Shown: positions 7,266-56,600 of the stretch, piece by piece
Layout of the letters: the number at the start of each line of letters is the position of its first letter
Numbering within the stretch: position 1 is the stretch's first letter
Source of the DNA: Sialis fuliginosa
Taxonomy: Eukaryota; Arthropoda; Insecta; Megaloptera; Sialidae
NCBI GenBank assembly: GCA_961205875.1
Contig: OY540817.1
Span: 20,123,001 to 20,187,000 of the forward strand
DNA length: 64,000 nucleotides
Reading direction: 5' to 3'
Position numbers and translations under genes: made by a program
The notes under the pieces: model-generated
The model's input: the letters and a program-made list of their open reading frames with translations, nothing else
Databases searched by the model: none
Told to the model about the DNA's origin: nothing

Positions 7266-7339
7266 AGTACAGGCGTATTCACTCAAAAATCCTTTCGCAT
7301 GATAAAAACTAATAACATTATCATATTCACAAAACTTAC

Positions 7340-10279
7340 CTAACTTTTCTAACAGCTCTTCTAAGAACTTGCACAGGATACAGCATCATCATACACAGCC
7401 TCCACGGTAGAGAAACACTGGTCGTGCTGACGGTCGTCGAGACATTTGGGTCACCGTGGACAACATCTTCAAAGCGCTCACGAGAACTAGGTCCCTGTTC
7501 GCTGGATCTCGATGGCCGAGAATCATTCCCAAATCGCAAACTGCGTGCAGTGTTGGTATCTTGAGAATTCGAGTCGATATTTTCTGAATTTCCATCTCTA
7601 GCTTCGTTCACGTTCGTATCGTTTGTATTTTGAAAGTTTAATTCGGTATTTTCTGAATTTAATTTTAATGTTTCGATTTTAGAGTTTCGTTTTGAATTTT
7701 TATTGGTGCGTTTTCGACTTGTTGAAATATTATATAAAGAACTGGGCATGTGCTTTTTCTTTGGCTTCTTTTCGTTAATACTAGATTTACACGGATGATT
7801 ATTTATGCTAGCCTTTTTTGGTTTCAATAATCCAAGAAATGTATTCGATCTTTTACGTGATAACTTCTTCAAAGAATTCGCTGACCTACTTTTCTTTTTC
7901 TGATCGTTAAAAACATCTGGGTTTATTGATTCTTCTTCAATACTTCCCAAATCGGATTCACCAAATATAAATGTATCAGGAAATGTTTTTTTATTTTTAT
8001 CCCTTTTTATTTTCTTTAAAAATATCGTAAAATCTTCCCCACTCAGATTTTTATCACCAATTTTACTTCCTAGATCAAAAACTAACCGATTAGTAAAATC
8101 ATATTTAGATTTTCCAAATCCAGTTCTTGTAAATTGCTGAAAAACAAACCCCACATCCAAATCATGAACCTTCTCCTCAGTTTCCTGCATCGATACATTA
8201 TCTTCTTCTTCTTCAGACGCTGTACCAATCCCAATCGCTTCATCGAACCCTTTCCAGCTAACTTTCTGCTCAGGTTTAACCCTGCAAGACGTTTGCGATG
8301 TTTTCTTATCTTCATTAATATTACCATCGTATGACTTTTGACTTTTCGATAGGATACCTTTCACTACACTTGGTCTTTGTACTGGATCTACAATCACTAA
8401 CGGTTGATCCATCCAGAGTAAGTGTTCTGATAGCTCTTCTAATACACTCACTTCATCTTCAACATCGTTCTTCTTATTCTTCTTATCATCCTTCTTGTGT
8501 TTCCTATCCTTTTCATTCAAAATGTTCACTCTTGTCATTTCAAAAACATTATCATCTTCAGGTTCTGAAGTCGGGGCATTTTTCCTGAACTTTTTAGTGA
8601 GCCTTTCTAAGCAACCTTTCTTCCTTTTACCCTTCCCCTTATCACGAGATAAAATCTCTCCATAAAAAGTCTCATCGTTTTGGGAAGACGAATGCCTCTG
8701 TCTTAAAGTACCATACACTTTCTTATCTATGATATTCTCATCATGAAACGTTAGATGTTCATCTATGAAATTTGCAACACCTTTTGATGCGAGACTGTTT
8801 CTTCCATAGACGCGTGAATGGCTTCCACTTTCCAATATCTGTTCGTCGCGACTTCTACGACCCACTAAACATTCATCCGAGTCTGGATCGTCCAATTTTT
8901 GAATACTAGTCGGCTCTTTCATCATGTATTCATCGTCAGATATAATAATCTTAGGTAAATTAGATAGTTCTTTTTCATTTTGAACGTGAGTACCAACTAA
9001 ATTATGAAATGTATGCACTCTGTCATGTTCTCCTGATACAGGAATCTTTGGTAACTGTGTCTCTATATCATCATCCTCATTTGGTTCACATATAATTACT
9101 CTATTATGATGAACGTACATGTTATTCTGAGCATTTGATTCTCGAACATGATGTTGAGTTTCTATACCTTCATTTGGTTCACAAATAATTACTTTATTAT
9201 GATGAACGTTACTTTGGGCATTTGAATCCCGAACATGTTGATCTAATTGTTGAGTCTCTGTACCATTGTCTTCATTTGGTTCGCAAATAATTACCCTATG
9301 ATGAACGTTTGAATCCCGAACATGTTGGTCTAAACCACTATTTTTAATAATTGATTCTCGATGTCTTATTTCGTGTTTACCATCATTATGCTTAATTTCT
9401 TGAACTGGTTCACGAAATGTTACACTGACGCGTCTATTTACGTTAGGATGTTGACTAACTGTATCATGAACATGTATTTTCTCTTGATTATGATGAACAT
9501 TTACCTTCTGACTATTTATACTTTCCTGATCCAATTCATGAGTATTCAAATTATTATTTTGATTACTCGGTCCAGGAACATTTGATTCTATAAAATTTAC
9601 AATATCATTATTATTTTGGTTATTAAAATTGCTGTTGCCTTGATCATTAGACTCCTGATTATTTACGCCAGCTTCACCAACAAAATCATTCGGAAAATTA
9701 ACAGAAGTGTGTTCATCAGATTGCCTCACAGATACAAAATATGAATCGATGTTTTTCGGGGGTATGTTCAATGAAGATCCTGAAATGGTGCTTAACATAT
9801 ATCGATTTCGACTACATGAAGATGTTTTAGATAGTAAGCATTTATCCGATAAAAAACTGTCCGAGTTATTAACAATAAGTACACCAGAAAACTGAATTCT
9901 GTTAGATTTGTTCGACAGCTTGCTAGATGTCTGTGAGAAAATATGTTGAATGTTTCGCGATGTTGAAGGACCATCTGTATGGTCATCTTTATCTACAGGC
10001 GATTTTGAAGTTTCTTTTTTATTTTCAGACGAATTCTCGTTATTAGAAGTTTCCGGTTTATCATCTTCATGTTTTTTTGTATGATCTTTTCCTACATTGA
10101 CTGAACTCTTTGTGTATTTAAGAGGAAACTGTATATCTGTTTCCGATAAAATTGAAGTGTTCGATTTGGGCTGATGACGATGGCTTAATAAATCATTTGA
10201 CGAATGTTGTCGAGCTGGATTTACAATAGAAACCGTGGAAGCCTCATCTTCAGCTTCGTACCCACTTAATGAGTCTTGG
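7340..10279 (-). CDS. Giant internal exon of an unrecognised disordered protein
   Basis: One open exon of 2,940 bp bounded by an acceptor (TTTTTATAG, intron side of 10279) and a consensus donor (GTAAGT, 7334-7339). The frame stays open for 979 codons, starting with one base and ending with two, so the exon is a multiple of three and phase-symmetric. The first in-frame ATG is only at 9798, so the start is probably in an upstream exon I could not find; the 3' exons would lie left of the window. The product is hydrophilic, rich in Asn, Ser, Asp, Glu and Lys, with several Lys-rich blocks and acidic tracts, no catalytic motif and no obvious signal peptide. A short hydrophobic stretch (LCMMMLYPVQVL) lies at the 3' end. 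Three imperfect repeats around VIICEPNE occur near the middle (about 9040-9350). I do not recognise the family. It could be a long cassette exon of a cytoskeletal, synaptic or membrane-associated gene, but that is a guess. Confidence 0.75.
9040..9350 (-). repeat. Three in-frame peptide repeats (VIICEPNE) inside the giant exon
   Basis: Three copies of a unit containing HVR(D/E)SN, VHH(N)(R/K) and VIICEPNE occur in succession, separated by ETQ-containing linkers. The DNA repeats with about 80-100 base periodicity and with substitutions and small in-frame indels, so the tandem duplication has been kept in frame. Confidence 0.8.
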
Positions 10280-10385
10280 CTATAAAAATTATTTATGTAG
10301 TACGAAAAAACACACCACTTTAAAAAAAAATCGCTTTAAATAACTGAAACTATATTGATTTAAATTTAATTTAAATATATCTTGT

Positions 10386-11219: not shown

Positions 11220-12039
11220 AAGTTTAAAGTTAATAATAAAACATCTGCCTTGGGAACCACGGGACTTTCTTATACCTAACCTAACAGTGAATTGTATACG
11301 TGATTCTTTGTTTATTAAAACATTTCTAACAAACTAACAAGATAGAACAAAACCTAACCTAACCTAACCTAACCTAACAGTGAATTGTATACGTGATTCT
11401 TTGTTTATTAAAACATTTCTAACAAACTAACAAGATAGAACAAAATGAATAATTTTATATTTATACAAGTGATTTTTTTTAACGTAATAACTGAAAACAG
11501 ATGTTTACTCTTGCAAATTTTTGGATTTTTGAATTATTTTTGAAATAAGAAAAAAATGTTTTAGATCAAAAATGTCGAGTATGTTATTATCTATAATTTA
11601 TTCCCCATACATTTTTTTCTCTGTTATGAACCATTTGAATTATAATACATTTTTTTTTTCAAAAATTCTTTTTTACAAAAAAATGAATAGAACATAAATT
11701 ATAGATATAACCTACATTTTTTAACTTGACCATTTTTCTCTATTTCGCACTGTTTCAGAGTAATTCAAAAAATTAAAAAATCGACGTAGGTAAACATCCG
11801 TATCCGGTTGAAAGATCGTTTTCAAAAATAGGACCCTTCTACGATTTGTCGTATTTGAGTTACAGCGCTTACAGACAGACAGACGGACACACAGAAATCA
11901 TGGCGAAAATAGTCAGAATGGATTCAGGGAAGATCAAAATAGATAATTCTGTCAAAATCCGGAGTTCGAAAAAAATCGGCTTCACTATACTTACTTATAC
12001 TAAATGTATATTTCATATACATGGTATAAGAAAGTAAAA
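11220..12039. repeat. Dispersed repeat family 5 (with CCTAA array), inserted in mariner
   Basis: Homologous in inverted orientation to 55843-56600. Shared landmarks are TGCCTTGGGAACCACGGGAC, the CCTAA array, TTTTAACGTAATAACTGAAAAC, GACAGACGGACACACAG, AATGGATTCAGGG and TATACATGGTATAAGAAAGTA. No ORF is conserved between copies. The element class is unknown; it behaves like a non-autonomous transposon. Confidence 0.75.
11274..11443. repeat. (CCTAA)n telomere-type arrays and an ~80-bp tandem duplication
   Basis: CCTAACCTAAC at 11275 and five CCTAA units from 11353 each precede the same block (CAGTGAATTGTATACGTG to AACAAGATAGAACAAAA), so the segment is duplicated in tandem with array lengths differing between units. 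CCTAA/TTAGG is the canonical insect telomere repeat. The arrays lie inside the repeat at 11220-12039. Confidence 0.85.
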
Positions 12040-12066
12040 ACGTGCATTATTTTTGCAACAACTTAA

Positions 12067-14157
12067 TAATAAAACGGTCAAGTGCGTGGGAAATATATTT
12101 AACTAATCAACAAACCTATTAAACAAAAACTGTTGATAAGCACCTCAAATCATTTTTGGGTTCATTGGCGTCACCACTATTCGGAGTTGTCATAATCAAT
12201 CACTTTCTCGATCATAGCAAGGGTAAAAACATTATGTTCCATTATGCACATCGAGTAAAATCAATTCATTCTTCAATCAGAACAAAGTTACAATAATGTT
12301 AGATAATATTCGATAAAAATAACTGTATAATAATACATACCTCTTTAAAAATAAAATAAACAGCGGAAGGAATAGTATTGCATTCTATATGTATTGCAGG
12401 GTGGGTAGTTTTCTTTTATGGGAGTGGGAAAATTAAAGTGTTAACGTTGTATATATTTTTTTATACATAATAATAATAGTAAAATTTAAATGTAAAGCTG
12501 AAATGTCAAAAATGACGCAATGGTGACGAACAAAAAATTTTAACCTACTAGATCGGAAATGTTACTTGGAAAAAAGATAAACGTTTTTAAAAATACGTTT
12601 GAAGTTCATACGTTATTTCCCCTATGCATGAAGTTGTAACATTTTGGGTTTCCTAATTTAATAAATTATACTTATATGTACGTTATACCACAGTCCCACA
12701 AAAAAGGCCATGTACTCTTAACTTGTAGATAATATTATTATCTATTTAAGGGGTTATTTCGGAAAATAAGATTTTTTTATAATTTTTTTCAGAATAATAA
12801 AAAAAGCAATCAAATGAAATTTGAAGGGTTTATTGTACACTAGCTGGACCCGCGCGGCTTACATTAGCTCGCGTGGAGTACGGAATTATTGTTTAGGATT
12901 TAAAAAATATATAGTTGAATTAAGTACAAACACGATTAGTTATAATTGTAATAAAAACCAAATATCACTTAAAAGTTAATTATTGAAAACAAAATAAACA
13001 ATTGACAATCAAAAGAATACCGGCCTGTGATCATTCCCTCTGCCCCGCGACTACACGGTACGCTCACTCATTTTTCAAATTTAGATAGATTAAGATATGC
13101 TTTAAAAGTTTTACAAATTATTGATTTACCCTAAGAAAGTTTCTGTATAAATAAAAAGATAAAAAATAGGTCAATGCACCGGGCAATATATCTTGTTGAC
13201 AATGTCAGACAACTTACTCAATTAGGATCAAGTTTTATTTGTTTTTTTTTAAGCACAGGCAATTTTACAGTTTTATAATAAAGATTTTCAATATAATCTA
13301 CATCATTTCTAATATATATTTACTACTATTACTACAGTAGTAGTAAGATTAACTTCAAAAAGCAAAACCATTATAATTAACAAACTATTTTATATATTTT
13401 TTATAGGTGATTCATTTTAGCATGCAAACATTTCAATGTTAAAGTATAGACATTATCATAAAAAACTGATATGTAGGTTTAGTGATAAAATATGAAGTTG
13501 CCTGTAAGCCTGTACGAAAAGCTGTTATCGACAATAAAAATATATACCCTTTTTTGCACGTGTAATGTTACCGTTAAAAAATAGGAAGGATCTAGAATAT
13601 TATTTTATTGGTTACTAAGCAGATAATGTATTAAATTAGTATTACGTTATCTAAGTATTCTTATCAAAAAAAATATATACCTATTTTAATCAATTTAAAT
13701 TGAAAATTTAACGAAAAAAATCTATCAACGATAAATTAAGGCAATAATCGTAAAAAATAGAGTTAAATATAATAACGTTTTGAGTAAATTGAATGATGTA
13801 CTTATTTAAAAAAATAATTAATTTAAAAATTTTAAAATGTTATTAAGAAGTGTGGCAACGTTGTATGGTTTATACACGTAAAATGTGTAAGTGTGTGTGT
13901 ATGAATACAAATACAATACACTATTAACCAAGTCGTTTGCGCTGTTGCCAAGATTTCAGTATTATTACAAATAATTATTTACTAGCTATTTTGCTAAGTT
14001 TTGCTAGTGTGGACTACGGAATTATTGTTTAGGATTTTTGAAAAATATAATTGAATTAAGTGCAAACAAAAACGAATCAGAACAAAAACTACACATAATT
14101 TTTGTTCTGTTTAAATTTAAAAGTCAATTGTTGAAAACAAAATAATCAATTAAAATT
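12067..14157. other. Intergenic with degenerate retroelement-like fragments
   Basis: No gene seen. Two related segments, near 12840-12990 (CTAGCTGGACCCGCGCGGCTTAC then GGAATTATTGTTTAGGATTT) and 13980-14150 (CTAGTGTGGACTACGGAATTATTGTTTAGGATTT), share about 100 bases and look like diverged copies of one dispersed element. A third fragment with GACTAGCGCGGCTTCACCCG lies at 46660. Confidence 0.5.
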
Positions 14158-14942
14158 CAAGCTTTTACTTTTTTTAATTCTTATATAAATATTTATATAG
14201 TGACTAAACGATTCTACGTCTTATTTTCTTGTATTTTAGTCGATATTTGTATGACGAGTTGAAGTTCACTGCAGGAAATTTCACTAAAAAATTTCGAATT
14301 TTTTATTTCGTTAAAAGTATGTTTATTGTATAGAAAATGACGCGAAAAGCTGTTTGTTTCAAACCGCAGGTCTGTATCTCAAACCGTTCTCGGGATATAG
14401 CCTCTCAAAGTTTTAGTTTTTTCAAATTTTTGGAGAAAAAAGGCCATAACTTTTGAACGCGTGGTCGGAATTGATTTTAGTTGACGGATTTGGAATCAGC
14501 GTGTCAAAATCTATATAATGACATGTATAATACCTGAAAACTCGAAAAAAAAATTTCACGAAAAATCGAAAAAATTCAAAGGGGTATACCTTAAAAAAAT
14601 GTCGATTTTTGGCCAAAATTTTTTTGTCGGATTTTAAAGTATTATACATGTCATTATATAGATTTTGACACGCTGATTTCAAATCCGTCAACTAAAATCA
14701 ATTCCGACCACGCGTTCAAAAGTTATGGCCTTTTTTCTCCAAAAATTTGAAAAAACTAAAACTTTGAGAGGCTATATTTCGAGAACGGTTTGAGATACAG
14801 ACCTGCGGTTTGAAACAAACAACTTTTCACGTCATTTTCTATACAATAAACATACTTTTAACGAAATCAAAAATTCAAAATTTTTTAGTGAAATTTCCTG
14901 CAATAAACTTCAACTCGTCATACAAATATCGACTAAAATACT
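14158..14942. repeat. Large foldback element family 6, copy 1 (~785 bp)
   Basis: Two arms of about 350 bp are near-perfect reverse complements. Examples are TGACGAGTTGAAGTTCACTG and AACTTCAACTCGTCA, TCTATATAATGACATGTATA and its complement, and GGCCATAACTTTTGAACGCG and its complement. The loop is near 14560-14620. A homologous element lies at 53568-54376. Predicted ORFs here (e.g. 14422-14691) simply run through the palindrome. Confidence 0.92.
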
Positions 14943-15974: not shown

Positions 15975-16265
15975 GTTTAGGCGGTATACCCAAAAAACTT
16001 AAAATTCGGAAATTCTTAAAATGGCTATAACTTTTTTGTCAAAATAGATAGGTATGTTTTGTTTGCGGTTTCTTAAAGCACTTTTTGTATAAAATTGATT
16101 AGTATATTTAGAATTTTTATATCACTTTTAGTTTCCGAGTTACAAGCCTTAACTTTAGTTTTTCTTATGGGCCACTAAGTTGGCTATAGTATATTTGAAC
16201 GTGTTTTTTACAACGATATATAACTTATACTAACTATCGAAAAATAGTAAGAACATTTTTTTTTG
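15975..16265. repeat. Half copy of foldback family 7
   Basis: Shares GGCTATAACTTTTTTGTCAAA, GATAGGTATG, TTTGCGGTTTCTTAAAGCAC and GGCCACTAAGTTG with the complete palindrome at 29888-30600. Only one arm plus part of the loop is present. Confidence 0.75.
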
Positions 16266-19444: not shown

Positions 19445-21465
19445 CTACTGGTTCTGATAGGCATGAGACGGAGATCTATGCCCGTAGAGTCCAGAGCCTT
19501 TAGCGTACGGGTTCACGCCAGGAATCGTAGTACCCGGAGTGTACGCAGGAGGTGGACCGTAATTTGTCGGCGGCGCCGGGTTAGACGGGGGTATGTAGTT
19601 AGCTGCCTGCGGTGGAGCGGGTAAGTTACCGTAGCCCGGTAATGCCGGAGCGTTAGTGTAGTTGGTACCGGGGTAGCCGGTTTGAGGAGGGAAGCTCGAC
19701 ATTGATGATGTAGGTGGTAGTTGATTGGCGGGGTATGATTTGTTGTATGAATTAGGGTCAGACGATGGTGGACGTTGTTGAGTTGCATACGTCGGAATGG
19801 TATACCTAAAAAATTCCATTATCAGAATATTTTTGGATTTTTTGCAGGACCAAATATAATTGAGACATAAGGACAATCTTGATTAGTATTTTTTACACAA
19901 GTACCTCAACCTGATTATTGTAATTACTTGTGTTATGCTTCACTAGTTATATAGTTTGTTTGGGGTTATCTATAAATTATTAATTAAATTTGTGTGACGT
20001 AATTTATTAATTCATTTTTTAAAATTTGTTGTCAACTTTTTTTTCGTAGATCTAATCTAAATACTACCTCAATGGCTTTAGCTATACTATACTAGCATTT
20101 CAATATTATAATTAGCATAAATAATATCATAGCTTCAATGTAAACCAATACTAGAATAATATAATAAAAAAAATAATTTATATAATTTAATAATGCCCAA
20201 CTATATTTGGTATAAAATGAATATTATTTAGTTAAATATTTATTACCCATCGTATGACATTGTAGTTGGTTGCATCGGTTGATTTCCATAAGGCTGAGTA
20301 GGTTGAGGTCCTGTATAGCCTGCTGAAATAATAATTATTAACAATCAAACTTACGAAAGACTAAAAATATACAAAAGACTTGATTTCATATAAATTATAT
20401 TGTACAATATGCTGTATTCAAGTTTTATATTGTTTGTATAACAGAAGTTCGAATCTAAAATTTGAATGATAATATAGTTTTATAAGTTAATAATTTACCA
20501 GGCTGCGGTGGATAAAATTGGCCTTCGTGTGAATTCTGAATTTGCTGAGGTTCATTCTTTGTTATGTTTTGTGCAGCAACGCTGCTAGAATCTTGCTGAG
20601 GATTAGTTATGGAAGTTTGTTCTGGAAGTACATTTTCTGGTTGATTATTCTGTCCAGTAGATTTGTTCTCTTCTTGCAGAGGATCGAATTCCCGTGAGTT
20701 TACTATAGTGTTTGATGTATTTGAAGCCTTATCACAAATTTTGACTAAAAAAAATTTCAAAATAATCAAAACAATGGCTATCATATACTGTCATTAATAT
20801 TATAAGTGATGTACAAGTAAAACGCACTACAAGAAGAAAGTAGATTGCAAAGATTTAAAAAACACACCTTCAGAATCTGCTGCAGGTACTGACGGCGTAT
20901 TCGTATCCATAGAATCCAGTAACTTATTTACTTCATCGCGGATATTTCTCAGTTGTGTTCTAACATGTTTTAAATCAGTCTGCGATATAGATTTGCCTTC
21001 AGTATCTTTATTAAACAGAATCTGAAGCTTCAATACACGGCTATATTGTATAGCAAATGATAAATCTGAGCTATCGAATATTGTTATTAAATCTCCATCT
21101 AAAATAATACAAAAAAATTGGTACAATTAGTTTTAAATAATATTTGGTAAGATTAAAGACTTTAGGTGCAGTATTGTCCTAACCAAATTACTATTTTATT
21201 CTAAATTTCTTAATAGGTGATTTTGGACGTTTTGCATTCAAATTGTCAAGTCTAGTTTAATAACTGGAAAGAAAACAGTACCTTCATCTCGATACTTGAT
21301 TGTAATTTCATCAGTACTTGATAATTTTCCTCTAAAAACCCTTTGCATCATTAAAACGAGTTCATCGTACGTAATTGCTTCATTATGTATAGGAATTCGT
21401 CTAATATCGTCCCCTAGTTGTACTTTAATAATAAGTTTTCCGGTTAAATCAATTGGTGAATCCAT
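19445..21465 (-). CDS. TFG: TFG (TRK-fused gene) homologue, PB1-domain ER-exit-site protein
   Basis: Five exons in gene order: 21282-21465, 20868-21098, 20499-20744, 20247-20322, 19445-19805. They total 1,098 nt (365 aa), close to animal TFG. Phases agree at every junction and all introns are GT-AG. Exons 1 and 2 encode the PB1 domain: [20 protein letters not shown] (about residues 9-28), [16 protein letters not shown], then [17 protein letters not shown], followed by a short coiled coil ([14 protein letters not shown]). Residues from about 140 on are low complexity, Gln/Asn/Ser then Pro/Tyr/Gly rich, ending in SPSHAYQNQ, as in other TFG proteins. Known role: TFG oligomerises through PB1 and the coiled coil and organises COPII carriers at ER exit sites through its disordered tail. 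Start is the ATG at 21465, directly before the PB1 region. The gene is divergent from ALG14. The family call is firm; exon 3 is the least conserved part. Confidence 0.95.
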
Positions 21466-21911
21466 ATTAATATTATAGGTTATATATCAATTGTCAATAC
21501 TGTACAATAATTATAAATTTGTTTAAAGAAAAAAACTCAAAATAAATACTCGCGAACTGATATGTGCCAGATCAACGATTTAATTATTATCTACTGTTTG
21601 CCACGAATAGAAAATTAACTGCAATATGATTTATCAATTAGATGACGTTACTCAACGTCAAAGGTTAAGTTCTGTTAAGTTGACAGCTTAACAAAGTTAT
21701 TGGTTAAATTAATCGTTGGATCGCTGATTAATCTATCGATGAAGGAATTTTTTGCATCGATGCGTATTTCAATGTACTTAAGAATTTGTGTAAAATTCCA
21801 CCGGTGATATTTAAAACATACTGATGAATTTCATTAATATTTCAATTTCATTTTTTGATGAATTGAGAGACGAAACAAATATGAAAACAGAATAACACTC
21901 CATTTGTTAAA
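21466..21911. promoter_or_regulatory. Shared divergent promoter region, TFG / ALG14
   Basis: The translation starts of TFG (minus, 21465) and ALG14 (plus, 21912) are 446 bases apart with no other gene between. The segment is less uniformly AT-rich than its flanks and contains a short inverted motif (CGATCCAACGATTAA-like around 21705-21735). No defined core-promoter element could be assigned, so transcription start sites are unknown. Confidence 0.55.
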
Positions 21912-22614
21912 ATGTAAGTAAAAAATAATTTATCGTATCATAAAATTTAATACATAATAATTTTAATTTATTTTCAGGGTTATATTAATTCTATTTTTGT
22001 TAATTTTACTTCTCATAATACGTACATTTTATCTCATATATCAAATTATAACAAATAAATCTGCAAATACCAAATTTACAAGAACAGAACCTGCAAAAAC
22101 ATTAATATGTATTGGCTCTGGGGGGCATACAACGGAAATATTACGTATTGTAGAAAAATTAGATTTGAAGAAATACTCTCCGCGATATTATGTCATGGCT
22201 TCAACAGATACGACAAGCAAAATAAAAATAATAGATATTGAGGGTAAAGAAACGAGCGATACACATAAAATTATGTATATTCCTCGTAGTCGAGTTGTAC
22301 ATCAGTCATACTTTACATCGATATTTACAACACTGTATTCGATTCTTTATTCATTTCCAATATTATTTAAAACCAGGCCAGATTTAATTCTTTGCAATGG
22401 TCCTGGAACTTGTGTTCCTATTTGTTTAATTAGTTTCCTATATAAAATATTTTTTATATCAAATACTAAAATAGTTTTCATAGAAAGTATATGTAGAGTT
22501 AAATCGTTATCTCTTACAGGAAAAATTTTGATTTTTATTGCAGATTGTTTTATTGTTCAATGGAAAAGCATAAAATCAAAATTAAGAGATTTTCAATGTT
22601 TTGGAAGACTGTAA
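21912..22614 (+). CDS. ALG14: ALG14, membrane anchor of the UDP-GlcNAc transferase
   Basis: Two exons: 21912-21913 carries only the first two bases of the start codon, and 21978-22614 the remainder. The donor is AT|GTAAGT and the acceptor TTTTCAG|G, so splicing builds the ATG. The product is 212 aa, close to the usual length of about 215. Residues 1-20 form a Leu/Ile-rich membrane segment (MVILILFLLILLLII). The glycosyltransferase family 1 N-terminal fold follows, with the CIGSGGHTTEIL nucleotide-sugar loop at about residues 43-54, YVMASTDTTS, then LILCNGPGTCVPI and FIESICRVKSLSLTGK, all diagnostic of ALG14. Known role: ALG14 sits in the ER membrane and recruits soluble ALG13 to add the second GlcNAc to dolichol-PP-GlcNAc in N-glycan assembly. 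Catalytic UDP-GlcNAc binding is in ALG13, not seen here. An AATAAA lies at 22639, 25 bases after the stop. Confidence 0.93.
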
Positions 22615-22644
22615 TAATGTTTTATTGATATTTTATTTAATAAA

Positions 22645-23110
22645 TGTTTATTATTAATCACTGTCGTGTTAATTATTTAATCCTTGAATTTTCTATAAAA
22701 GAAAGAAATTATAAACTTCTTAATGAAGATGTACGTGACTTAATACACAAACTTTGGAGAGATGCAATTTGAAAAAGTGAATAAACTCAATCGTAAGTCA
22801 AAAATAAACAATGAGTAATAGTTTCTTGTTTTTTTTACGTTTTTGTATGACTTAAATCAGCAACGCTCAAAATGTAATACTTTCTATTTACAAATTTAAC
22901 TATTTCATAATTCACTGTATCAAAATATTTTTCTTATTTATCAATAAATTATAACTAGAAATGATGAATAAATTTACTAAAAAATATCTTAATTATGTCT
23001 GAGTACTTTAAATATATTTTTTTAAATATTAAAGGTATTAATTATTATTATTTATTATACATCAATATTTGTATCATAAAAAAATGTTTAGATTCACTGG
23101 TCGTGTTCTA
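22645..23110. other. Intergenic between ALG14 and the HIG1 gene
   Basis: AT-rich, with no coding exon supported. An ORF from 22995 has no splice or homology support and probably lies in promoter or 5' leader DNA of the next gene. Confidence 0.5.
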
Positions 23111-23349
23111 CTTTGTATTTGGCGTATTTGGATTACGTGACAATATACAAGAAAGAAATTCCCCTACTCTGACCTGCCGGCTGTTTCCTACAGGTTCTAT
23201 AGAATATTATTATTTAATTCGACGGCGCGACGTCCTTTCGAAGGAAGGTTTGATAGATTATCAGCACAGTCAGATATTATACCAAGGCCAGTGATATTTT
23301 TTAGTACAGATAAATTGTGTTTCTTCATTTTTAACCGACAAATAACTCG
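23111..23349 (+). other. Probable 5' untranslated exon of the HIG1-domain gene
   Basis: A segment of higher GC (CTGACCTGCCGGCTG, GACGGCGCGACGTCC) ends in a good donor, ACTCG|GTAAGC at 23349/23350. A matching acceptor, TTTGTTACAG at 23433-23442, lies six bases before the start codon. The upstream limit is a guess. Confidence 0.5.
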
Positions 23350-23448
23350 GTAAGCAACAAAAAGATTTGGTATCGATTAGATTTTATTTAAAATTGCATT
23401 TCGGTAGTAAATACGTCGTATTATTAATAACATTTTGTTACAGTGAAA

Positions 23449-24659
23449 ATGTCGAACAATTATGTTGAAGAGTCGCAGCTTGAGAAATTGAAGAGGAAAA
23501 CAAAAGATGCACCAATTTTCCCAATTGGTGAGTACAAATAATTTATTTTAAAAAAAATTGTTTTTCGTTATTCAATTTTTTTTAAGTCAAGGTCGTATTA
23601 TGAAACAAAAGGCACCGTGACCTGGTTATTAATGTCAATTTTTTTTTTCAATAAAATACAACAATTAAATTGTTTTGTTTTACCAAAAAGTAAACATTTT
23701 TTTGCATGATTTGCTTGCTTCTGTATCAATTAAAATTCAAGGTTATTGAGAAAAAACTTGTTTTGTAAATATACCTTGTTATAATTCAAACTAAAAAAAC
23801 ATTTTTAGCTGATGATGTAAATGAGATTTGTTTTATTTATCGTATCAGAATTAGAATATCTGAATGTAATATAATTAATATTCATAGATTTATTTAGCAA
23901 ATATTCAGTGCGAAAAAATTAAATTTATGAAATCACATTCAATATTTTATTAATTTTGGTACTTGACTGTTTTGTGCTAGTCACAATTCTATATTTTACA
24001 TTTTGTAGTTTGGTCTATCTAACATTCCCAGATTTGCCACTGGGAGATAAGGAGTGGTAAAGATTGTCCTAATAGTTCTAACCCTAAAAATAAAAACAAT
24101 ACTTTGTATTTTTTGGCCATGGATATTGACCTTCTAGAGATGTGGCAATGAATATGAAATTTATTCAAAAATAGTACTTCCTTTTAATGAAATAAATTAC
24201 ATAATGATTATATTTATAGTTCACCATTGAACTTACACCATCTAGCTAATGACCTAATTTTTAAGATAGCAACAATTGGCAAATAAGATGTTTTGGGAAA
24301 CTTTGACTGTATATTAGGTGTCGTTCATATATCCGACAGAACTGTACGGAAATAGGAATTTTTTCACTTTATTTAATGTAAACATACAAAATCGACTTTT
24401 TTTCAAAAGTACTCGTTTTGGTTCTAACAATAACAAATACATAATGGTACTTAACTTTACAGGAATTGCGGGATGTGCGATAATGTGTGCGGTTGCAGCA
24501 TACAAGTACAAAACAAGAGGTAACACAAAAACCAGCGTCTTCTTGATGCAAACTCGTGTCGCTGCACAAGGCACAGTTGTAGCTGTCTTAACGGCAGGAT
24601 TAGCTTACCAAATGGCGAAAACATATTTATGGAAAGATGATGAACATAATGAAAAGTAA
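23449..24659 (+). CDS. HIG1 domain family protein (HIGD1-like)
   Basis: Two coding exons, 23449-23527 and 24463-24659, joined by a 935-base GT-AG intron in phase 1, give 91 aa, matching HIGD1 proteins (about 93 aa). After a short charged N terminus, residues 13-30 read EKLKRKTKDAPIFPIG, the conserved lead-in to the HIG1 domain. Transmembrane segment 1 (IAGCAIMCAVAAYKYK) and a loop with TRGNTKTSVFLMQTRVAAQG follow, then segment 2 (TVVAVLTAGLAYQMA) and a charged tail. The RGNTK and (M/T)RVAAQG motifs are hallmarks. Known role: small inner mitochondrial membrane proteins that associate with respiratory complexes III/IV and respond to hypoxia or stress. It reads more like HIGD1 than HIGD2 because of its length and simple N terminus. 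AATAAA signals occur near 25022. Confidence 0.93.
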
Positions 24660-26143
24660 ATACTTTTCGGGTAGAATTAAAATATAAAATTGTACGATCA
24701 ATATTAATTCTATTTTTCGAATTACTTTAATATTTGTGTGTTCTAAATGAAATTATACTAACGGTATTGGATGTGTATATTTTTCTAAGATATTAATAAT
24801 TTTAAGGAATGAAATTATGACAATTATTGAACTGAATGAATTTTTTTAAATTGCTTTGAGATTTTTTTATTTTGAACACATTAATATATTTTCAATGCAA
24901 CTTTATTTTCATGAAATTTTTACATATGTTTAAGTTGTAGAAAAAATATTCTTTTTATGTATATTAATATAGTATGCTTTTAATGTATATATAATGTGTT
25001 ATATTATTATTAAAATTCAAAAATAAATTATAAATGTATTGAAATAAAAAAAAAAGTTTTATCATTATTTATGTGCATGTACATTCTGTTTACAGGTTTT
25101 GCGATATAAAAATTCAAAATAAACACGTGGATAGTAAGTATGTTGTTTATAGTATTTTTATGATAATATGTCCATTAGTTTTTTAATCTTTTTACAAATA
25201 TATCATTTATAATATTTAGAAAAACAAGGTTTAGTAATAAATTAAATAAGTAATATAGAATTTGCATGTTTATTTTAAGTCATACTCCCTAAAAGTTTCA
25301 TAAACCCAGGGCTTTTTTTTGTCATGTAACGCAGTGGAACGGTGTTCTGGCACCTTTTTTTCATTGGCATAGGAAAAGCTGCTTTAAATTTCATTTTAAT
25401 GATATTTGAATATAATTTTCTTCAATAAAAAGCTTGACAAAAAGTGTGTTCTTTTTCTCAAATAGAATACAGATAATTGTCTGTGTATTTATTCATAAAC
25501 ATCCTGTATATAGAATCATATTTGTAAGGTGTTCTTGTAAAAGTTATTGACCTTACATCTAGTCTGTCAGTTGTTATATACACAAAAAATGGGCAAAGGT
25601 CCAAGAAATTTTGGCTAACAGGAAGCTTATCAAGAAATAGAAAAAAAACTTGACTTATTGTGTGAACTATAGAATTTTTTCTTGGAAGATGAACACTATT
25701 TTAAAAATATTGTAGTTAGTAACAGGAGAAAAAAAGAGTTGTTATGTAAATACATTTTTTTTGTCTGAATATTTTATGTGCCAATAAGACAAATGTAGTT
25801 TATTTGAATTTAAAATGTCAAATATATATAGTTATAGATATGAATAAATTATTTCAGTATCTTTGGTGTAAATTACACAATTTTGCATTGATAAAAGTAA
25901 TACAGAGTTATCATTTTTTAATTCTTATGATGAAAATATTTTAAAATATACACAAACAGGGATAAGGCATTATTTAATACAATTATTAATATCAATCAAT
26001 AATTACATACTATGGCCAATATATTGTTGTAGAATCAATGTTCATTACATTTTATTCATCCTGTTTATCAAAGAGGTATTGTTAAATAAAATATTACTCA
26101 TATCATCTCAAATTTCATATATTTCCAAACTTCAACCACAAAT
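24660..26143. other. Convergent intergenic region
   Basis: AT-rich, holding the 3' ends of the HIG1 gene (plus) and the Gag-zinc-finger gene (minus). AATAAA occurs at 25022 on the plus strand; TTTATT (AATAAA on minus) occurs near 26051. A possible transposon-like stretch near 25305-25380 (CAGTGGAACGGTGTTCTGGC) has no paired end. No other gene seen. Confidence 0.5.
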
Positions 26144-28592
26144 TTAAACAGATAAACCATTAACATGCACCCTCGAATGTTTTACTAATTTAGACTTTTG
26201 CGTGTATGTCTTATCGCAGACGTCACATCTAAACGGCCGTTCCCCAGTATGCACCCTCCTGTGTTGCAGCAGTACACATTTGAACGCAAATGTCTTATGG
26301 CACACTTCACAGGCGTGCGGCCGTTCCCCACTATGCACTCGAGCGTGCTTAGACAAGTTGGACTTGAGAGAGAACAGCTTGTTGCAGACTTCACACTTGT
26401 ATGGACGTTCCCCACTATGGGTGCGAAGGTGGATTGTCAGGTAACTTTGCTTGGCGAACGTTTTATCGCAGGTAGGACACGTGAATGGTTGGTCATCTAA
26501 ATGTACCTTGGAATGATTCACCAGATAGCTCTTCCTCGCAAATGCCCTACCGCATACGTCGCATTTAAATGGTCTATCGTCGCTGTGCGTCCGGTAGTGC
26601 TTGTATAAGTTGCTTTTGAGCGCAAATGTGCGGGCGCAGACCTCGCACATGTACGGCCGTTCTCCACTGTGGACCCTCGCGTGTACGCGCAGGTAGTTCT
26701 TCACCGGGAAGCCTTGGCCGCAGACATTGCATTTGTAGGGACGTTCGCCTGAGTGTACCAACAGGTGTTTGAGAAGGTTTGATTTCGTAGAAAATGATTT
26801 AGCGCAGATCTCGCACATGAATGTACGTTTTTCTGTGTCATCTGAAGGAGTTGCTGTCACATGTTTATCAGTTGAACGATCTGTCAAAAAAAAAGTTAAG
26901 TAAAAACAGAAATTTTGAATATTTGGTATTGTGAATAATATTTTGTATTCACAATTATTTCACAAAGACAGAGAAGTCAAAATATATCAAAAAATAATAC
27001 GTACCATGAGAACGTGAATGAATAAACAAATAATTCCTCTGTGAAAATGTTTTTGAGCATATCTTACAATTAAATGACCTTTCTGTTGAATGTATCCTCG
27101 AATGTTTCAACAGATTTGACTTGAATGAAAATTTCTTATCACAGGATTCACAATTGTATGGTTTTTCTTGACGATGCATTCTCATATGAATAATCAAATA
27201 GCTCTTTCTTGCAAATGTTTTATTACATTCATCACATTTGTGTGGACGATCCCCGCTATGTATTTTTAAATGGTTTATCAGAATACTCCGTGTAGAAAAG
27301 TTCTTATTACACACTTCACATTCAAAAGGTTTTAATCCTGAATGGACACGTTCATGAGTTGTGAGTATGTTCTGGGATGTAAACGATTTATTGCAGGTTT
27401 TGCATTTGAAGGGTCGGATTGTATTATGTATAGAAATGTGTGATGTTAAATCGGCACTTTGTGAAAATGTTAATTTACAAACACCACATTCATAAGGCCT
27501 TCTTTCGCTATGGATTCTTTTATGTTTAATCATATTTGATTTGAAGGTAAATGCTTTACCGCAGAAGTCACATTTAAATGGTTTATCTCCACTGTGTATC
27601 CGAGCATGAATTAGCAAATAATCTTTACGGGAAAACTTTTTCTCGCACATCCCACAGCTGTATGGACGGACTGTCGTGTGTATTTTGGAATGGGTTATCA
27701 GTGTACTTTGTGATGAGAAACTGCTAGCGCAACTTTCACACTTGAAAGGCCGATCTTCAGAATGGGTTTTCATGTGTAATGATAAATCATTTTTGTTGTG
27801 AAATATCTCGTTGCATACTTCACATTCAAACTGTTTGTCTTCTGTTTTGATAACGTTTTTATCAATGTCTTCTAGTTTTACATCAACTTCAGGAAAAATT
27901 ATCGTTTCACAATTTTTTTTATTTTCAACTGTTTCAATTTTTATATAATTACATGTATTATTATGTTCCTCATTTTGTGTTGTTTCATTTTCAATATTAT
28001 CATCAGTATTACTGTTAGAATTACTCAATTCATTTATTTCTTCGAATGGTTCTGTTTGAACATTATTTTCTTCATCTATAAACATTTGATCAGATTTAAG
28101 TAAATGTCTAATAGTTTTTTCTAACGTTAAGTGTTCATCTTTACGTAACATTTTTGATTCTAACTGGTTGAGAATTCCACAAACTAATCGATCTCTTATC
28201 ATTTCATCATGAAGCAAACCAAAACTGCAACTAGAAGCTAATTCATATAATGACTTAATATAGTTATCATATGGTTCGTTTTCTTTTTGAAATCGGGTGA
28301 AAAAGTTGTACCGTTCATTTATTACATTTTTATGTCTGCTACATAGCTCATCTAATTTTCTAGTAATGTTTTTATACTTTTTCATATTACAAGAACTAAG
28401 TTTAAGTGATGATAATATTTCCTTTGAATGTTTTCCTATACAAGAAAGTAATATTTTAGTTTGGTACTTTTCAGATTTATTTCTTAACCCTGATATTATA
28501 CGCTGTACTTCAAATTCACTTTTCCATTTAGGCCAATCAGAAATAACAGTTATTTGAACAGGTATGTTGAATTTGTTATTTAATGCTGTCAT
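26144..28592 (-). CDS. Gag capsid-like domain fused to 18 C2H2 zinc fingers
   Basis: Two exons, 27005-28592 and 26144-26880, separated by a 124-base intron (donor CATG|GTACGT, acceptor TTTTTGACAG), in phase, give 774 aa. Residues 1 to about 170 resemble the capsid region of Ty3/gypsy-type Gag: KWKSEFEVQRIISGL, then KILLSCIGKHSKEIL, then NFFTRFQKENEPYDNYIKSL, ELASSCSFGLLHDEMI and RDRLVCGI, with a following LTLEKTI helix. No protease, reverse transcriptase or CCHC knuckle follows. An acidic Asn/Glu-rich linker (about 175-255) leads to ten C2H2 fingers in exon 1 and eight in exon 2, most joined by TGEKP-type linkers (HSGERP, HSGDRP). Inference: a nuclear DNA-binding regulator in which the Gag-derived part mediates self-association, as SCAN domains do in vertebrates. 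The start is the only upstream ATG in frame. If the intron were not used, exon 1 alone would encode 545 aa with ten fingers, and exon 2 has no ATG of its own at its 5' end, which supports joining them. Confidence 0.82.
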
Positions 28593-29887
28593 TGTTAAAG
28601 TTTAATTTTTTCAATAAAATTTTTTAGGTTAACGATCGTTTTATCATTAAATCAATTTTATTTATTGATGGATATACGTTTTTAAATCTTTACATTTATA
28701 TGAGACATAAATCATTTAATAGTTTTCAATATTTCATTCAAATTTCAATCAAATAAGAAATAAACAGTACTATAATATGCACTATATGACATATGTCATA
28801 ATATTATGACGATTATGACAGTTATCCAAGCTATAAACCTTTATTTTAAAATTTAAAAACATCGAAAATAAATTATTTTATAAGCTGTGATGTTTTAATT
28901 AATTTATTATTTATGTATAGTCTGTATAGTATTATCAAATTTTATAACTTACATTAAATATCACATCTTTTTTTCTTCTATAACCTCACTTCTTCTTATT
29001 GTTAAAAATTAATAAAGAAAGGTATATATGTATGATATAAATTTAAAAAAATAAGAAATTAAGAATACAAATATTCACTGTCCAGTTTTTTTTAGTGATA
29101 TCATGATAGGCAGCAGCATTTTATATATGATATCTTATAGTACTTTTGAAGTTCAAATGAACACGTTGGTGCAGTTTTTACCAAAATTGGTCCAGCAGTT
29201 TTTGAGTGTTCTTCAATTAAACACAGACACACAAACTGTCTCTTAACTTATTTGCAATAACTGTCAAAAGAGAAAAATGTATGGTTAAATAAAAACACAA
29301 ATAAAATTATTATATATTTTTAATATAATTTTCCATAAAAGAGAGATAAACAATGTTTCACATAACACTGTCAATAGAATATGATAGAGAAAACATTACA
29401 TTCAAATGTTGCTATATAGGCAAAATTTAAACAAATACTTTACACTTTGCAATATTATGCTCATGCCCACAAACAATAAAACCTTTATTTCTAATGTACT
29501 TGAATTCTCAAACAATGCACATATTATATCGTACAGAAAAGTAACATCAACTAAAACAAAAAACGCTTGCGTAAACAGGTAAATAAAATAATATCACACG
29601 ATGAAATGGTTTAGTCTACATTAGAAAAAAGGTGTATTATATTCCAAAATTAATAGATAAAAAATTATCATATATATTTATGTATAAAATATTAATAAAT
29701 AAACTTATATAACACATCAACAGACTATTTTATCTTCAACATATAAAACATTTTAAAATACTGAACATAGAGGCAAGTGTTAATATGCCGACGGCGCGAC
29801 ATCGTACCGGTAAATAAACGTACTCCGATGTCCAGACAAGTCCGGAACACGGGCAATTGCACTCTCCGTATTTATTGCGTATCAATA
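28593..29887. other. Upstream region of the Gag-zinc-finger gene
   Basis: AT-rich. A dispersed-repeat fragment around 29085-29250 contains CCAAAATTGGTCCAGCAGTTTTTGAGTG, a phrase like the 3' parts of insect non-LTR or SINE elements. A small GC-richer block (GACGGCGCGACATCGTACCGG) lies at about 29788-29860. No gene seen. Confidence 0.45.
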
Positions 29888-30600
29888 ATACAGGGTGTCC
29901 GAGATAAGCGTGAAATGTATGGGGATTTCCTAAATGGTAAGAGATACAGATTCAGTTAAATGAGATGAATTATTTGTAAGGAAGTTGTGAGTATTACTAC
30001 ATCAAAAAATATTAATAATTCTATGTGGCTTAGGCTGTATACCCAAAAATCTCAAAATTCAGAATTTTTTAAATGGCTATAACTTTTTTGTCAAAGTAGA
30101 TAGGTATTTTTTGTTTGCGGTTTCTTAAAGCACTTTTTGTGTAGAATTGATTGGTGTATTTAGAATTTTTATATTACAATTTGATAACAATAAACTATTA
30201 CAAAAAATTTTCTTACTTAGTTACATATCATTGTAAAGTAGAGTAAAAAAAAACGTTCAAATATGCTACAGTCAACTTAGTGGCCCATAAGAAAAGTTAA
30301 AGTTCGGGCTTGTAACTCAGAAATAAAATACATCAATCAATTCTACACAAAAAGTGCTTTAAGAAACCGCAAACAAAAAGTACTTATCTACTTTGACAAA
30401 AAAGTTATAGCCATTTAAAGAATTTCTGAAGTTTCAGATTTTTGGGTGTACTGCCAAAACCACATAGAATTATTAATATTTTTTGATGTAGTAATACTCA
30501 CCCTTTCCTTACAAATAATTCATCTCTTTTAACTGAATCTGTATTTTTTACCATTTAGGAAATCCCCATGCATTTCACGCTTATCTTGGACACCCTGTAT
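29888..30600. repeat. Foldback element family 7, full copy, TIR ATACAGGGTGTCC
   Basis: The element begins ATACAGGGTGTCCGAGATAAGCG and ends CGCTTATCTTGGACACCCTGTAT. The arms match for about 290 bases, including AAATCCCCAT, CACATAGAATTATTAATATTTTTTGATG, GGCTATAACTTTTTTGTCAAA and TTTGCGGTTTCTTAAAGCAC with their complements, around a loop near 30190-30240. Partial copies lie at 15975-16265 and 54636-54782. No ORF of note. Confidence 0.92.
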
Positions 30601-32548
30601 ATATAAACATTATAATAAATTGGCACTAAAAATAAAATATATAAATAAATATAAAGGAACACAAACGTAACAAAACATCTACATAATTAATAATATACTG
30701 ATCCGCAAAAAAATAATTAAATTTACAACTACTATATATATTATGTATATATATATATTTATATTTTATTTATAATCATTCAAGAGAAAAATATAAGTAC
30801 AGATGTGTGAATTGAAGTGTACAATTTAAATATTAGGCCAAAAACATTACCTCAAAAAGCCAATTCATAGAACGGCTTTTCAATCAAATAATTTCACTAC
30901 TAATTTTGCTACAGAAGTGAATTTGATTCTCATTTAAGTCACGTACCTTCTATAACTAACAGAGAAGGTTTTTGTGCAACATAGTCGCAGACGCTGACGT
31001 CCGTCACAGACAGACGGCCGCCCCAGGCATCTCTTTAACTACAACTTGCAGGATGCACATTAACAGTATTTTATTACATTAAATTCGATTATTTTCATTA
31101 AGAATTTTCACAGCTATTACATTAAAAAAGCAACTCTTGATGTAAAACTCTTTAACCGATTTAGTTTCACACTGACCATTTATTTCTAGTCTATTATTTA
31201 TTATTTATCATTCATTTTAACTACTTTTCAGTCAGATACAGATATTTCATTTTTAACTAATTTGTTTGTTGTAATTGTAAAAAAATAACACACTACGACA
31301 GGTTTTGTGATTATATTCAAATCACTAGAAATAAATGATCTACCGGTTAGAAGATAATCATTAGTATTATGTAATAAATGTATGAAAAGAAATAACTTTA
31401 CACTAAGTCAGATCCTATTCAATAATTTTAATAATTTTTTTCACTATTCTTAAGAGAGACTGCATTAATATGAAATATTTATAAGATTTATATTGAACAT
31501 TATATTATATAATAATATCTAAAGTTATCCTCAAACAGTCACGAGAATAGAAAACAGAATCCAGGATCTAAGAGCAAATAGATCATGCATTCCGGGCTGG
31601 CTGGACCTCAATCATTCGGGCCCTGCCACTTTAAGTAACATTTCAGATATCATGTATGTATGTCTATACAAATACTTTATGGAACCATTTTGAACAAAGC
31701 AACTTGTCGAAACGATGCGCATTCTTTACCCATCGCTTATTGACTGGTATTACGATTCCTTGTTCTACATTCATAAGACAGTATTAAATCTAAACATTAT
31801 TAAACATTATTATATGCATATAACAAACGCCAAAAAATGTTCATATGTTATGTATATATTTATATATATATATTATATCCACGATAATCATTTGTTTCTG
31901 CTGTTGGATACGGTACAAATAAATAAACGTAACGTTGAATATTTCACACACAACTCAATTTTCCAACACACGAAAATTCTTCCTATGAATATATAAACTA
32001 AATTCACCTAATCTTAAAGAATAACGTAAGTTGTTGTGCTATCAGAAATTCTGTACTATATCCTAATATATGACAGCGTCAGAAGTTACGAAAAGCTCTC
32101 CATGAACAACTACAGTATGAAACTTATTTAGAAAGGTTTGGCATTATCATGTACTATCAATAATACTCGCTCCCATCACCGACATCGCAACGGTACAGCC
32201 TCGGAGAATCCAACAAAACGTCAGCAAAGAAAGGGTAAGGCATGTATTAAAGCACATCCACCAAGAAATCCAAGCTTCTCTGAGGAGCGGTCTGAAGACA
32301 GGCCGTACCGCGCACGGGCGCAACTACACGTGTACTGTTACAAATCACTAATAGCACACAAACTTAAACAAAGGGCCACGTCAGACTCTTCTAAAATATA
32401 ACCACTATGGCACAAAAAACTAGTGATATGGTTTTAGAAAATAATAACGCTAAAGTCATTGTGACTGATTTTGAGGTTCTGATTTGTTCTGTCGGATGCA
32501 GCAATAATAATTTTCAATACATTCCCCATCGGAATCAATCGCGGACGC
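30601..32548 (-). other. Probable CaMKII 3' untranslated region and downstream DNA
   Basis: Directly follows the CaMKII stop codon on the minus strand. Islands of higher GC at about 32150-32370, 31570-31640 and 30985-31035 interrupt AT-rich sequence and are not kept as exons by splice sites. They fit a long 3' untranslated region, as is common for CaMKII. TTTATT (AATAAA on minus) occurs repeatedly near 31170-31210. The ORF at 32138-32401 on plus lies in one GC island and has no other support. Confidence 0.4.
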
Positions 32549-50229
<17,681 letters not shown>

Positions 50230-53352: not shown

Positions 53353-54473
53353 CAGTAGCGCACCCAAGGGGTGGACGGTAGGGATTAGAATTCACCAGAA
53401 TTTGTCAATATACATTTAATCCTCCCCTTCCCACCGATTTTTTCTGGGTGTTAAATAAATGGTTCAGAATTTACTGATAAATTGAAGAAAAAAATCTATA
53501 TAATAAACATACAAAATCAAAAATAGCATTTAATATTAATTTACATGCTCAATTATAAAACTATAATACCTCTACGTCTTATTTTCTTGTATTTAGTCGA
53601 TATTTGTATGACGAGTTGAAGTTCACTGCAGTAAATTTCACTAAAAAATTTCGAACTTTTGATTTCGTTAAAAGTATGTTTATTATATAGAAAATGACGT
53701 GAAAAGATGAACTGTTCAAACCGCAGTTCTGTATCTCAAACCGTTCTCGAGATATGGCCTTTCAAAGTTTTAGTTTTTTCAAATTTTTGGAGAAAAATGG
53801 CCATAACTTTTGAACGGGTGGTCAGAATTGATTTTAGTTGACGGATTTGAAATCAGCGTGTCAAAATCTATATAATGACATGTAGAATACCTTAAAACTC
53901 GAAAAAAAAAATTTCGCGAAAAATCGAAAAAATTCAAAGGGGTATACCTTAAAAAAATGTCGATTTTTGACCAAATTTTTTTTATCGGATTTTAAAGTAT
54001 TATACATGTCATTATATAGATTTTGACACGCTGATTCCAAATCCGCCAACTAAAATCAATTCCGATCACCCGTTCAAAAGTTATGGCCATTTTTCTCCAA
54101 AAATTTGAAAAAAGTAAAACTTTGAGAGGCTATATTTCGAGAACGGTTTGAGATACAGACCTGCGGTTTGAAACAAACAACTTTTCACGTCATTTTCTAT
54201 ACAATAAACATACTTTTAACGAAATCAAAAATTCTAAATTTTTTAGTGAAATTTCCTGCAATGAACTTCAACTCGTCATACAAATATCGACTAAAATACA
54301 AGAAAATAAGACGTAGAATCATTTAGTTACTATATAAATATATAAGAATTTATTTAAAAAAGTAAAAGCTTGAACTTAAGGTGTTTCATAACTATTTTTT
54401 TTTTGTTAATAAGAGGGGAAGGATTTACAAAATATGCTTCACTTATTAAAAATTTCACGCCTCGCCACTGTTG
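53353..54473. repeat. Possible hAT-like element containing a large foldback
   Basis: CAGTAGCGCACCCAAGGGG at the left and CGCCTCGCCACTG at the right could be diverged hAT termini enclosing the foldback at 53568-54376. Flanking 8-mers do not match, so the outer element is tentative. Confidence 0.4.
53568..54376. repeat. Large foldback element family 6, copy 2 (~800 bp)
   Basis: Same long palindrome as 14158-14942, with arms of about 350 bases around a loop near 53950, and closely similar in sequence despite being 39 kb away. The homologous terminal segment (AAGCTTTTAC to ATTCTACGTCTTATTTTC) is at the left in copy 1 and at the right here, so the copies are in opposite orientation. Confidence 0.92.
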
Positions 54474-54635
54474 TTAATTTATCAATTTTAATTTGTTTAT
54501 AATAGGGGAAGGGGTCGTGACGGTCTTTGGGCACATGCTACTCTTAAAGTTAATGATGTAAGCTATATTTCAAAAAAAATTTAAGTCTGTAGGATCGCAC
54601 CAAGCTGAGATATTAACTATTCAAATTATTCTGTA

Positions 54636-54782
54636 TACCGCCTAAACTACTTAGAATTATTAATATTTTTTGATGTAGTAATACTCACCCCTTCTTTACA
54701 AATAATTCATCTCATTTAACCGACTCTGTATCTTCTACAGTTTAGAAAATCCCCATACATTTCACGCTTATCTTGGACTGTA
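54636..54782. repeat. Partial copy of foldback family 7
   Basis: TTAGAATTATTAATATTTTTTGATGTAGTAATACTCACC through CCCCATACATTTCACGCTTATCTTGGAC matches the right arm of 29888-30600. The left arm is missing. Confidence 0.85.
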
Positions 54783-55007
54783 TATTGCACACTAACATTT
54801 TGATAACCACTGCAATACTAACATCCAACAGATATAAACTTTGTTCAATTTTCCACGCAAAAAAAAAGATAGAGCGAGATCAAATTTTTATTATTGATAT
54901 ATTCATAAAAATATCCAGTCTATAAAATTTTATATACATCATAATATTTTCCCTTCTTTTTTGCCGATATTCTGACCAACGAGCCGCTACTGAAACCATC
55001 AATAACT

Positions 55008-55664: not shown

Positions 55665-55842
55665 ATAACATCAAATTTTTCAAGACAGGAGGTAGGTTTT
55701 TCATCCACAGTGAATTTTCTCACAATACCTGCTGTCGTTAAGATTACAACGGGGTTGTATACAGTACGAAATTATTGCTTACATAGCAAAAGCTCTATAA
55801 TCATACAGGGTAGCATTAAGTTTATTATTATTATATTTTTAC

Positions 55843-56600
55843 TTTCTTATACCATGTATATGAAATATACATCAGTATAAGTAAGTATAGTGAAGCCGAT
55901 TTTTTTCGAACTCCGGATTTTGACGGAATTATCTATTTTGACCTTCCCTGAATCCATTCTGACTATTTTCGCCATGATGTCTGTGTCCGTCTGTTTGTAA
56001 GCGCTGTAACTCAAATACGACAAATCGTACAAGGGTGATATTTTATATTTAAGATTAATTTTTGGCTGGGAAAAAAACGTCCTATTTTTGAAAACGATCT
56101 TTCAACCGGATACGGATGTTTACCTACGTCGATTTTTTAATTTTTCGAATTACTCTGAAACAGTGCGAAATAGAAAAAAATGGTCAAGTTAAAAAATGTA
56201 GGTAATATCTATATCTATAATTTATGTTCTATTCATTTTTTTGTAAAAACGAATTTTTGAAAAAAAAAAATTATTATAATTCAAATGGTTCATAACAGAG
56301 AAAAAAATGTATGGGGAATAAATTATAGATAATAACATACTCGACATTTTTTATCTAAAACATTTTTTTCTTATTTCAAAAATAATTCAAAAATCCAAAA
56401 ATTTACAAGAGTAAACATCCGTTTTCAGTTATTACGTTAAAAAAATCACTTGTTATATAAATATAAAATTATTCATTTTATTCTTTCTTGTTAGTTTGTT
56501 AGAAATGTTTTAATAAACAAAGAATCACAATTCACTGTTAGGTTAGGTTAGGTTAGGTATAAGAAAGTCCCGTGGTTCCCAAGGCAGATATTGTATTAAC
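55843..56600. repeat. Dispersed repeat family 5, copy 2 (inverted), with TTAGG array
   Basis: Runs from ACTTTCTTATACCATGTATATG through GACGGAATTATCTATTTTGACC, a four-unit TTAGG array near 56537-56557, to GGGACTTTC-complement and GTCCCGTGGTTCCCAAGGCA. It is the reverse complement of the insertion in the mariner element at 11220-12039, here not inside a mariner. Confidence 0.85.

Follow-up and report, generated by a model that had tools for sequence, protein, structure and literature searches.

In vertebrate SCAN zinc-finger proteins such as ZNF24 and PEG3, the C2H2 array is preceded by an N-terminal module that comes from a capsid. The SCAN domain has been traced to the Gag of a Gmr1-like Gypsy/Ty3 element and is presented as specific to vertebrates (PMC3424704), and the SCAN dimer is described as resembling a domain-swapped capsid C-terminal domain (CTD) (PMC3720700). 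Insects have ZAD-C2H2 proteins, in which the N-terminal dimerizing module before the fingers is a zinc-coordinating fold; the same source treats ZAD as typical of insects, and both KRAB and SCAN as modules typical of vertebrates (PMC5509000). Transposon-finger chimeras in insects are already known, since PMC13389597 describes one from a mosquito that combines C2H2 fingers with pieces of the Harbinger auxiliary protein. Here we describe a gene of the megalopteran insect Sialis fuliginosa that joins a Ty3/gypsy-type Gag capsid (CA) to C2H2 fingers. It lies within a 64,000-nucleotide stretch, called the window below (GenBank assembly GCA_961205875.1, contig OY540817.1, forward-strand positions 20,123,001 to 20,187,000).

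The single-copy capsid-C2H2 fusion gene is real, and the most probable reading is a SCAN-like regulator that was domesticated independently, with a mechanism that we infer. It has capsid homology, a predicted two-lobed fold, and an uninterrupted frame; one copy of it was found in its genome, and no close element copy. The literature matches listed, judged by titles and the starts of abstracts, included none on a Gag-C2H2 fusion in insects; we do not claim from this that none is in print.

Structure of the fusion gene

The gene encodes an N-terminal CA domain (residues 1 to 172), followed by a linker of acidic character and then by 18 C2H2 fingers in two groups of 10 and 8. Its 774-codon frame plus stop, as read from the sequence, runs on the minus strand over 28592..27005 joined to 26880..26144, and it has no internal stop, in agreement with the sequence-only reading, which had described an intact frame of this length passing from a capsid region into zinc fingers. 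The features are as follows.

26144..28592, minus strand: whole gene, a two-exon CA-linker-C2H2 fusion of 774 codons plus stop, whose DNA was found once in the genome
27005..28592, minus strand: exon 1, with the CA domain, the acidic linker, and fingers 1 to 10
28335..28544, minus strand: CA N-terminal lobe, residues 17 to 86, from homology and AlphaFold2 helices
28077..28328, minus strand: CA C-terminal lobe, residues 89 to 172, from the model, fold matches, and conserved columns
28248..28304, minus strand: major-homology-region-like stretch, residues 97 to 115 (FFTRFQKENEPYDNYIKSL), with F97, R100, Q102, and E106 kept
27825..28061, minus strand: acidic Asn/Ser-rich linker, where elements have nucleocapsid, protease, and pol
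27006..27824, minus strand: C2H2 fingers 1 to 10, GC content at third codon positions (GC3) 0.30
26881..27004, minus strand: predicted phase-1 intron, 124 bp, from sequence only
26144..26880, minus strand: exon 2, with C2H2 fingers 11 to 18 at 26165-26815, GC3 0.54
26051..26056, minus strand: AATAAA, about 90 bp past the stop, a possible poly(A) signal

The ATG is at 28592, with an in-frame stop four codons 5' of it, and the stop-to-stop frame starts at 28601. The predicted intron is bounded by GTACGT...TTTTTTTTTGACAG, and the splice junction (27005|26880) is likewise a prediction. All 18 fingers have intact zinc ligands, and 16 of the 17 inter-finger linkers are seven residues long. The GC3 of exon 2 differs from that of the exon-1 fingers (z of about 5.4, from rounded counts) and a 22-residue stretch parts fingers 1 to 10 from fingers 11 to 18, so the 18-finger array may be a mosaic of two pieces of different composition.

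The same difference in composition would also be expected if there were two transcripts, with exon 1 making a ten-finger protein and exon 2 belonging elsewhere. Exon 1 extended into the intron without splicing indeed meets a stop soon past the junction, giving a 545-amino-acid ten-finger frame. However, the splice sites are good and the phase matches, and exon 2 has no ATG ahead of its fingers other than the codon that immediately precedes finger 11. We consider two transcripts quite improbable, and such an arrangement would be compatible with a fusion of CA to ten fingers.

The N-terminal region is a Gag capsid

Residues 1 to 177 matched 29 Gag or Gag-pol proteins in two protein searches. The first returned 6 Gag-pol proteins (best E value, 1.5e-16), one of them named K02A2.6-like, and a search focused on residues 15 to 175 returned 23 more (best E value, 4.9e-28; 45% identity). 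An element profile from which the window piece was excluded aligned to that piece in hhalign with a probability of 100 and an E value of 6e-39. By these comparisons, residues 1 to 177 are a Gag capsid beyond chance. The Gag identity proposed earlier for the N-terminal ~170 residues thus held in the protein matches, in hhalign, and in the predicted fold. The domain was detected with the element profile but not with Pfam, which found no family in residues 1 to 254 at an E value of ≤1. That search therefore also found no ZAD or KRAB domain at the N terminus. Three of four Gag relatives given to Pfam reached Retrotrans_gag below the cut-off (E values of 0.00085, 0.0083, and 0.092). A phmmer search of the PDB with residues 1 to 177 gave only five LRRK2 rows (E values of 0.13 to 0.25), and a viral-contig scan with exon 1 gave 24 pattern matches, none confirmed.

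A CCHC knuckle is present in 28 of the 29 relatives and a D-T/S-G-A/S protease motif in 25, and none has a C2H2 finger. The alignment ends at residues 159 to 178 in 23 relatives and at residues 186 to 230 in the remaining 6, and in all 28 knuckle-bearing relatives it stops short of the knuckle. In the window protein, C2H2 fingers stand in place of the knuckle, protease, and pol that follow CA in the elements.

The AlphaFold2 model is a two-lobed CA, with N-lobe helices at residues 17 to 34, 41 to 62, and 73 to 86, and homology and model together span both lobes (residues 17 to 172). All 50 aligned PDB chains among the matches listed are capsid or capsid-derived proteins, although the Foldseek E values are weak. 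The absence of a Gag-like fold, which would have spoken against the earlier proposal, was therefore not what we found. The fold matches include dArc1, dArc2, PNMA2, and Ty3 capsids. SCAN structures were absent from the best 50 fold matches listed, which excludes nothing. As modeled, the domain is a whole two-lobed CA and not a SCAN-style CTD-like piece.

We also considered whether the C-lobe alone had been preserved, as in SCAN. The C-lobe keeps 25 of the 30 columns conserved at ≥85% in 23 element Gags and the N-lobe keeps 5 of 9, a count that looked suggestive, but the window piece has an N/C-lobe identity ratio of 0.76, within the range of 15 near elements (0.72 to 0.85; six truncated Gags left out). 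We therefore rejected C-lobe-only preservation.

The retention of both lobes, neither preferentially diverged, is what an Arc-like capsid gene might show, as are the dArc1, PNMA2, and Ty3 fold matches. In such a gene, CA would form shells and the C2H2 fingers would replace the knuckles as the nucleic acid binder, with RNA or DNA packaged or carried. An 18-finger array is, however, large to fit inside a shell, and finger arrays usually send proteins to nuclear DNA; we regard this explanation as very improbable.

A probable single-copy capture rather than a live element

We searched the source genome (392 Mb, 20 contigs) and found the DNA of the gene once, plus one 59-bp piece at 81%. Residues 1 to 177 matched 51 other places, and those spanning >120 residues were at most 36% identical (best, 30 to 36%); 24 of the 51 sit in frames of at least 1,000 residues. 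We inspected 19 of these non-self places, limited to frames of at least 120 amino acids. In none did the Gag frame contain C2H2 fingers, and in 18 knuckles appeared within that frame or just beyond it. As a separate observation, contig C14 carries 12 of the 51 places, both intact and broken, and is perhaps a repeat-rich or sex-linked contig.

In a Gag tree built from 16 element loci (of 19 fetched) and 24 database Gags (of 29), other Ty3/gypsy families of this genome contained near-identical copies with internal branches near zero, and the window Gag formed a lone branch with a length of 0.99 substitutions per site. Two external elements, P0127 and P0128 (41 to 42% identical over the aligned region), were closer to it than any aligned place in its own genome (26 to 35%). 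A tblastn search of the 64-kb window with the 29 element proteins (low-complexity filter on) gave no match outside the Gag region at an E value of ≤1e-3, in keeping with the claim that no pol gene accompanies the fusion. We saw no flanks resembling long terminal repeats (LTRs): 28593-34500 and 20001-26143 share one exact A/T-rich 15-mer, and a self-comparison of the window gave no repeat pair closely bracketing the gene, though badly decayed LTRs would escape both tests.

Since the gene is single copy, lies on a lone long branch, and has no visible LTR-like flanks or pol, it does not look like part of any family with current or recent activity in this genome, and the results fit an old single-copy captured capsid. 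A live element, or local fragments of one, was rejected because no pol match was seen in the window, the DNA was found once, and the other Gags spanning >120 residues are ≤36% identical. Many near-identical copies with pol, the pattern of an active element that the sequence-only reading had set against itself, did not appear.

A different possibility is that an element inserted fairly recently in the 5' part of a zinc-finger gene, leaving the frame open by chance and CA without a host function. A predicted Diabrotica virgifera protein, P0035 (named zinc finger protein 420-like at NCBI), bears on this. It has the same Gag family followed by C2H2 fingers (profile E value of 1.3e-26 in 126 proteins; hhalign probability, 98.3). 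Unlike the window gene, it retains CCHC knuckles, along with a protease-like piece, ahead of its fingers, and the two are 28% identical over 86 aligned positions; we therefore read P0035 as a fusion that arose separately or was trimmed less, or as a gene-model artifact. It may itself be a recent insertion or a joined gene model. Against a recent insertion, no other donor copy exceeded 38% identity among the genome places scored, no LTR or pol remnant was seen, the nucleocapsid and protease are gone, and there is no stop in the frame. We judge a recent insertion unlikely.

Two indirect indications bear on selection: the 774 codons contain no stop, and changes in the capsid part fall mostly in variable columns. 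The window Gag keeps 24 of 28 conserved columns versus 17 of 74 variable columns. Its conserved-column share (0.86) is below that of the 23 defining elements (0.93 to 1.00, leave-one-out), so it is less conserved than its near relatives; six more distant elements reach 0.61 to 0.75, and P0035 reaches 0.43 (12 of 28). This column pattern fits constraint over most of the branch, with the element phase and the host phase not separated. The GC3 of the capsid part (0.20) matches the A/T-rich surroundings (GC, 0.22 to 0.25). Of the 153 pairs among the 18 fingers, 118 gave a saturated or undefined dN/dS.

Comparison with SCAN and other capsid-derived proteins

The window protein resembles SCAN proteins in the N-terminal place of its module before a C2H2 array. 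It does not have a single CTD-like five-helix module lacking the N-lobe but carries both lobes. Compared by hhalign with seven SCAN domains (from seven of the eight SCAN-bearing proteins scanned; the partial P0083 was left out), it scored a probability of 0.3, against 0.1 to 0.4 for reversed and shuffled controls. SCAN homology was rejected at this control level. The failed comparison is weak evidence on deep kinship, because the capsid profiles described in PMC11011659 also failed to detect SCAN proteins. The window gene further differs from SCAN genes in having the capsid and first ten fingers in a single exon. With no profile relation and both lobes kept, the arrangement is SCAN-like without belonging to SCAN, and the missing profile relation points to an independent origin. 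The proposal of a SCAN-like layout of independent origin therefore stands for position and for profile, but the module is not CTD-like. By analogy, the fusion is probably SCAN-like in its working, as an oligomerization module for a DNA-binding array.

Unlike the window CA, the ZAD module coordinates zinc. dArc1, dArc2, and Gagr are host genes from LTR-element gag, and none is known to have a C2H2 array. Gagr is described as a domesticated insect gag gene (PMC10816282). The predicted protein P0047 of the caecilian Rhinatrema bivittatum (LOC115094716) has Retrotrans_gag and C2H2 fingers, with Ty3_capsid just under the cut-off. Unlike in the window gene, its Gag lies between finger blocks, and it has no profile similarity to the window Gag (hhalign probability, 0.6). 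Given P0035 and P0047, capsid-finger fusions may recur. P0035 was the one protein with a Gag of the window gene's family among the best 120 of 3,328 zinc-finger matches, and no full-length orthologue was found among the matches listed in the Gag searches or in those best 120.

Origin of the fingers and proposed mechanism

The source genome holds a large C2H2 family: scoring 150 of 1,772 candidates yielded 221 matches to exon 2. The closest relative of exon 2 among the scored candidates (contig C10, 12849208-12849873; 48% identical) belongs to a 596-residue frame that has 16 fingers and an acidic leader but lacks a capsid, and it is not among the 51 Gag places. Its leader, VIKLEHIKIEQ, resembles by eye the end of the linker of the window gene (VDVKLEDIDKNVIK), which suggests that the capsid was placed ahead of a complete finger gene. 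Elsewhere on C10, near 835680, a 198-residue six-finger C2H2 frame lies beside a same-strand Gag-pol frame, a possible raw fusion state.

We propose with reasonable confidence that this is a host gene in which the capsid part of a Ty3/gypsy Gag arrived in frame 5' of a C2H2 zinc-finger gene already present there, unaccompanied by LTRs or by any nucleocapsid, protease, or pol part. The protein would be nuclear. Its CA would self-associate through the C-terminal lobe, and perhaps the N-terminal lobe too, and so could gather several 18-finger arrays on DNA, as SCAN, ZAD, or BTB domains do; selection on this host function would have kept the fusion. A further idea, which we think rather unlikely, is that an independently domesticated two-lobed capsid outside vertebrates builds finger-array assemblies beyond the dimer on chromatin, or shells in which sequence-specific C2H2 fingers take the place of the knuckles as the cargo binder. 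A second capsid-finger fusion, retaining both lobes and drawn from Gags that show no detectable relation to SCAN, would point to capsids as recurrently suited to oligomerizing DNA-binding arrays. Whether capsid lattice contacts beyond the CTD dimer are reused in gene regulation becomes a testable question.

Neighborhood of the gene

The neighbors are those named in the sequence-only reading, HIGD1 and CaMKII. The HIG1-family gene is at 24318-24656, with ALG14 nearby, and CaMKII is at 44412-44996 on the minus strand, where PDB chains 5hu3 and 5fg8, both of the fly enzyme, tie as the best match, in keeping with an insect source. Pfam found no domain above the cut-off in six other frames of the window. 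A 999-residue open frame (7339-10335, minus strand) is rich in Ser, Asn, and Asp, has internal repeats, and has no Pfam match. An inverted-repeat element at 29888-30602, 1.3 kb 5' of the gene, has arms of about 275 bp that are 93% alike and has relatives at 15975-16209 and 54620-54785. Dispersed repeat pairs, direct and inverted and 88 to 95% alike, join 14153-14941 with 53571-54377 and 11357-12040 with 55836-56558.
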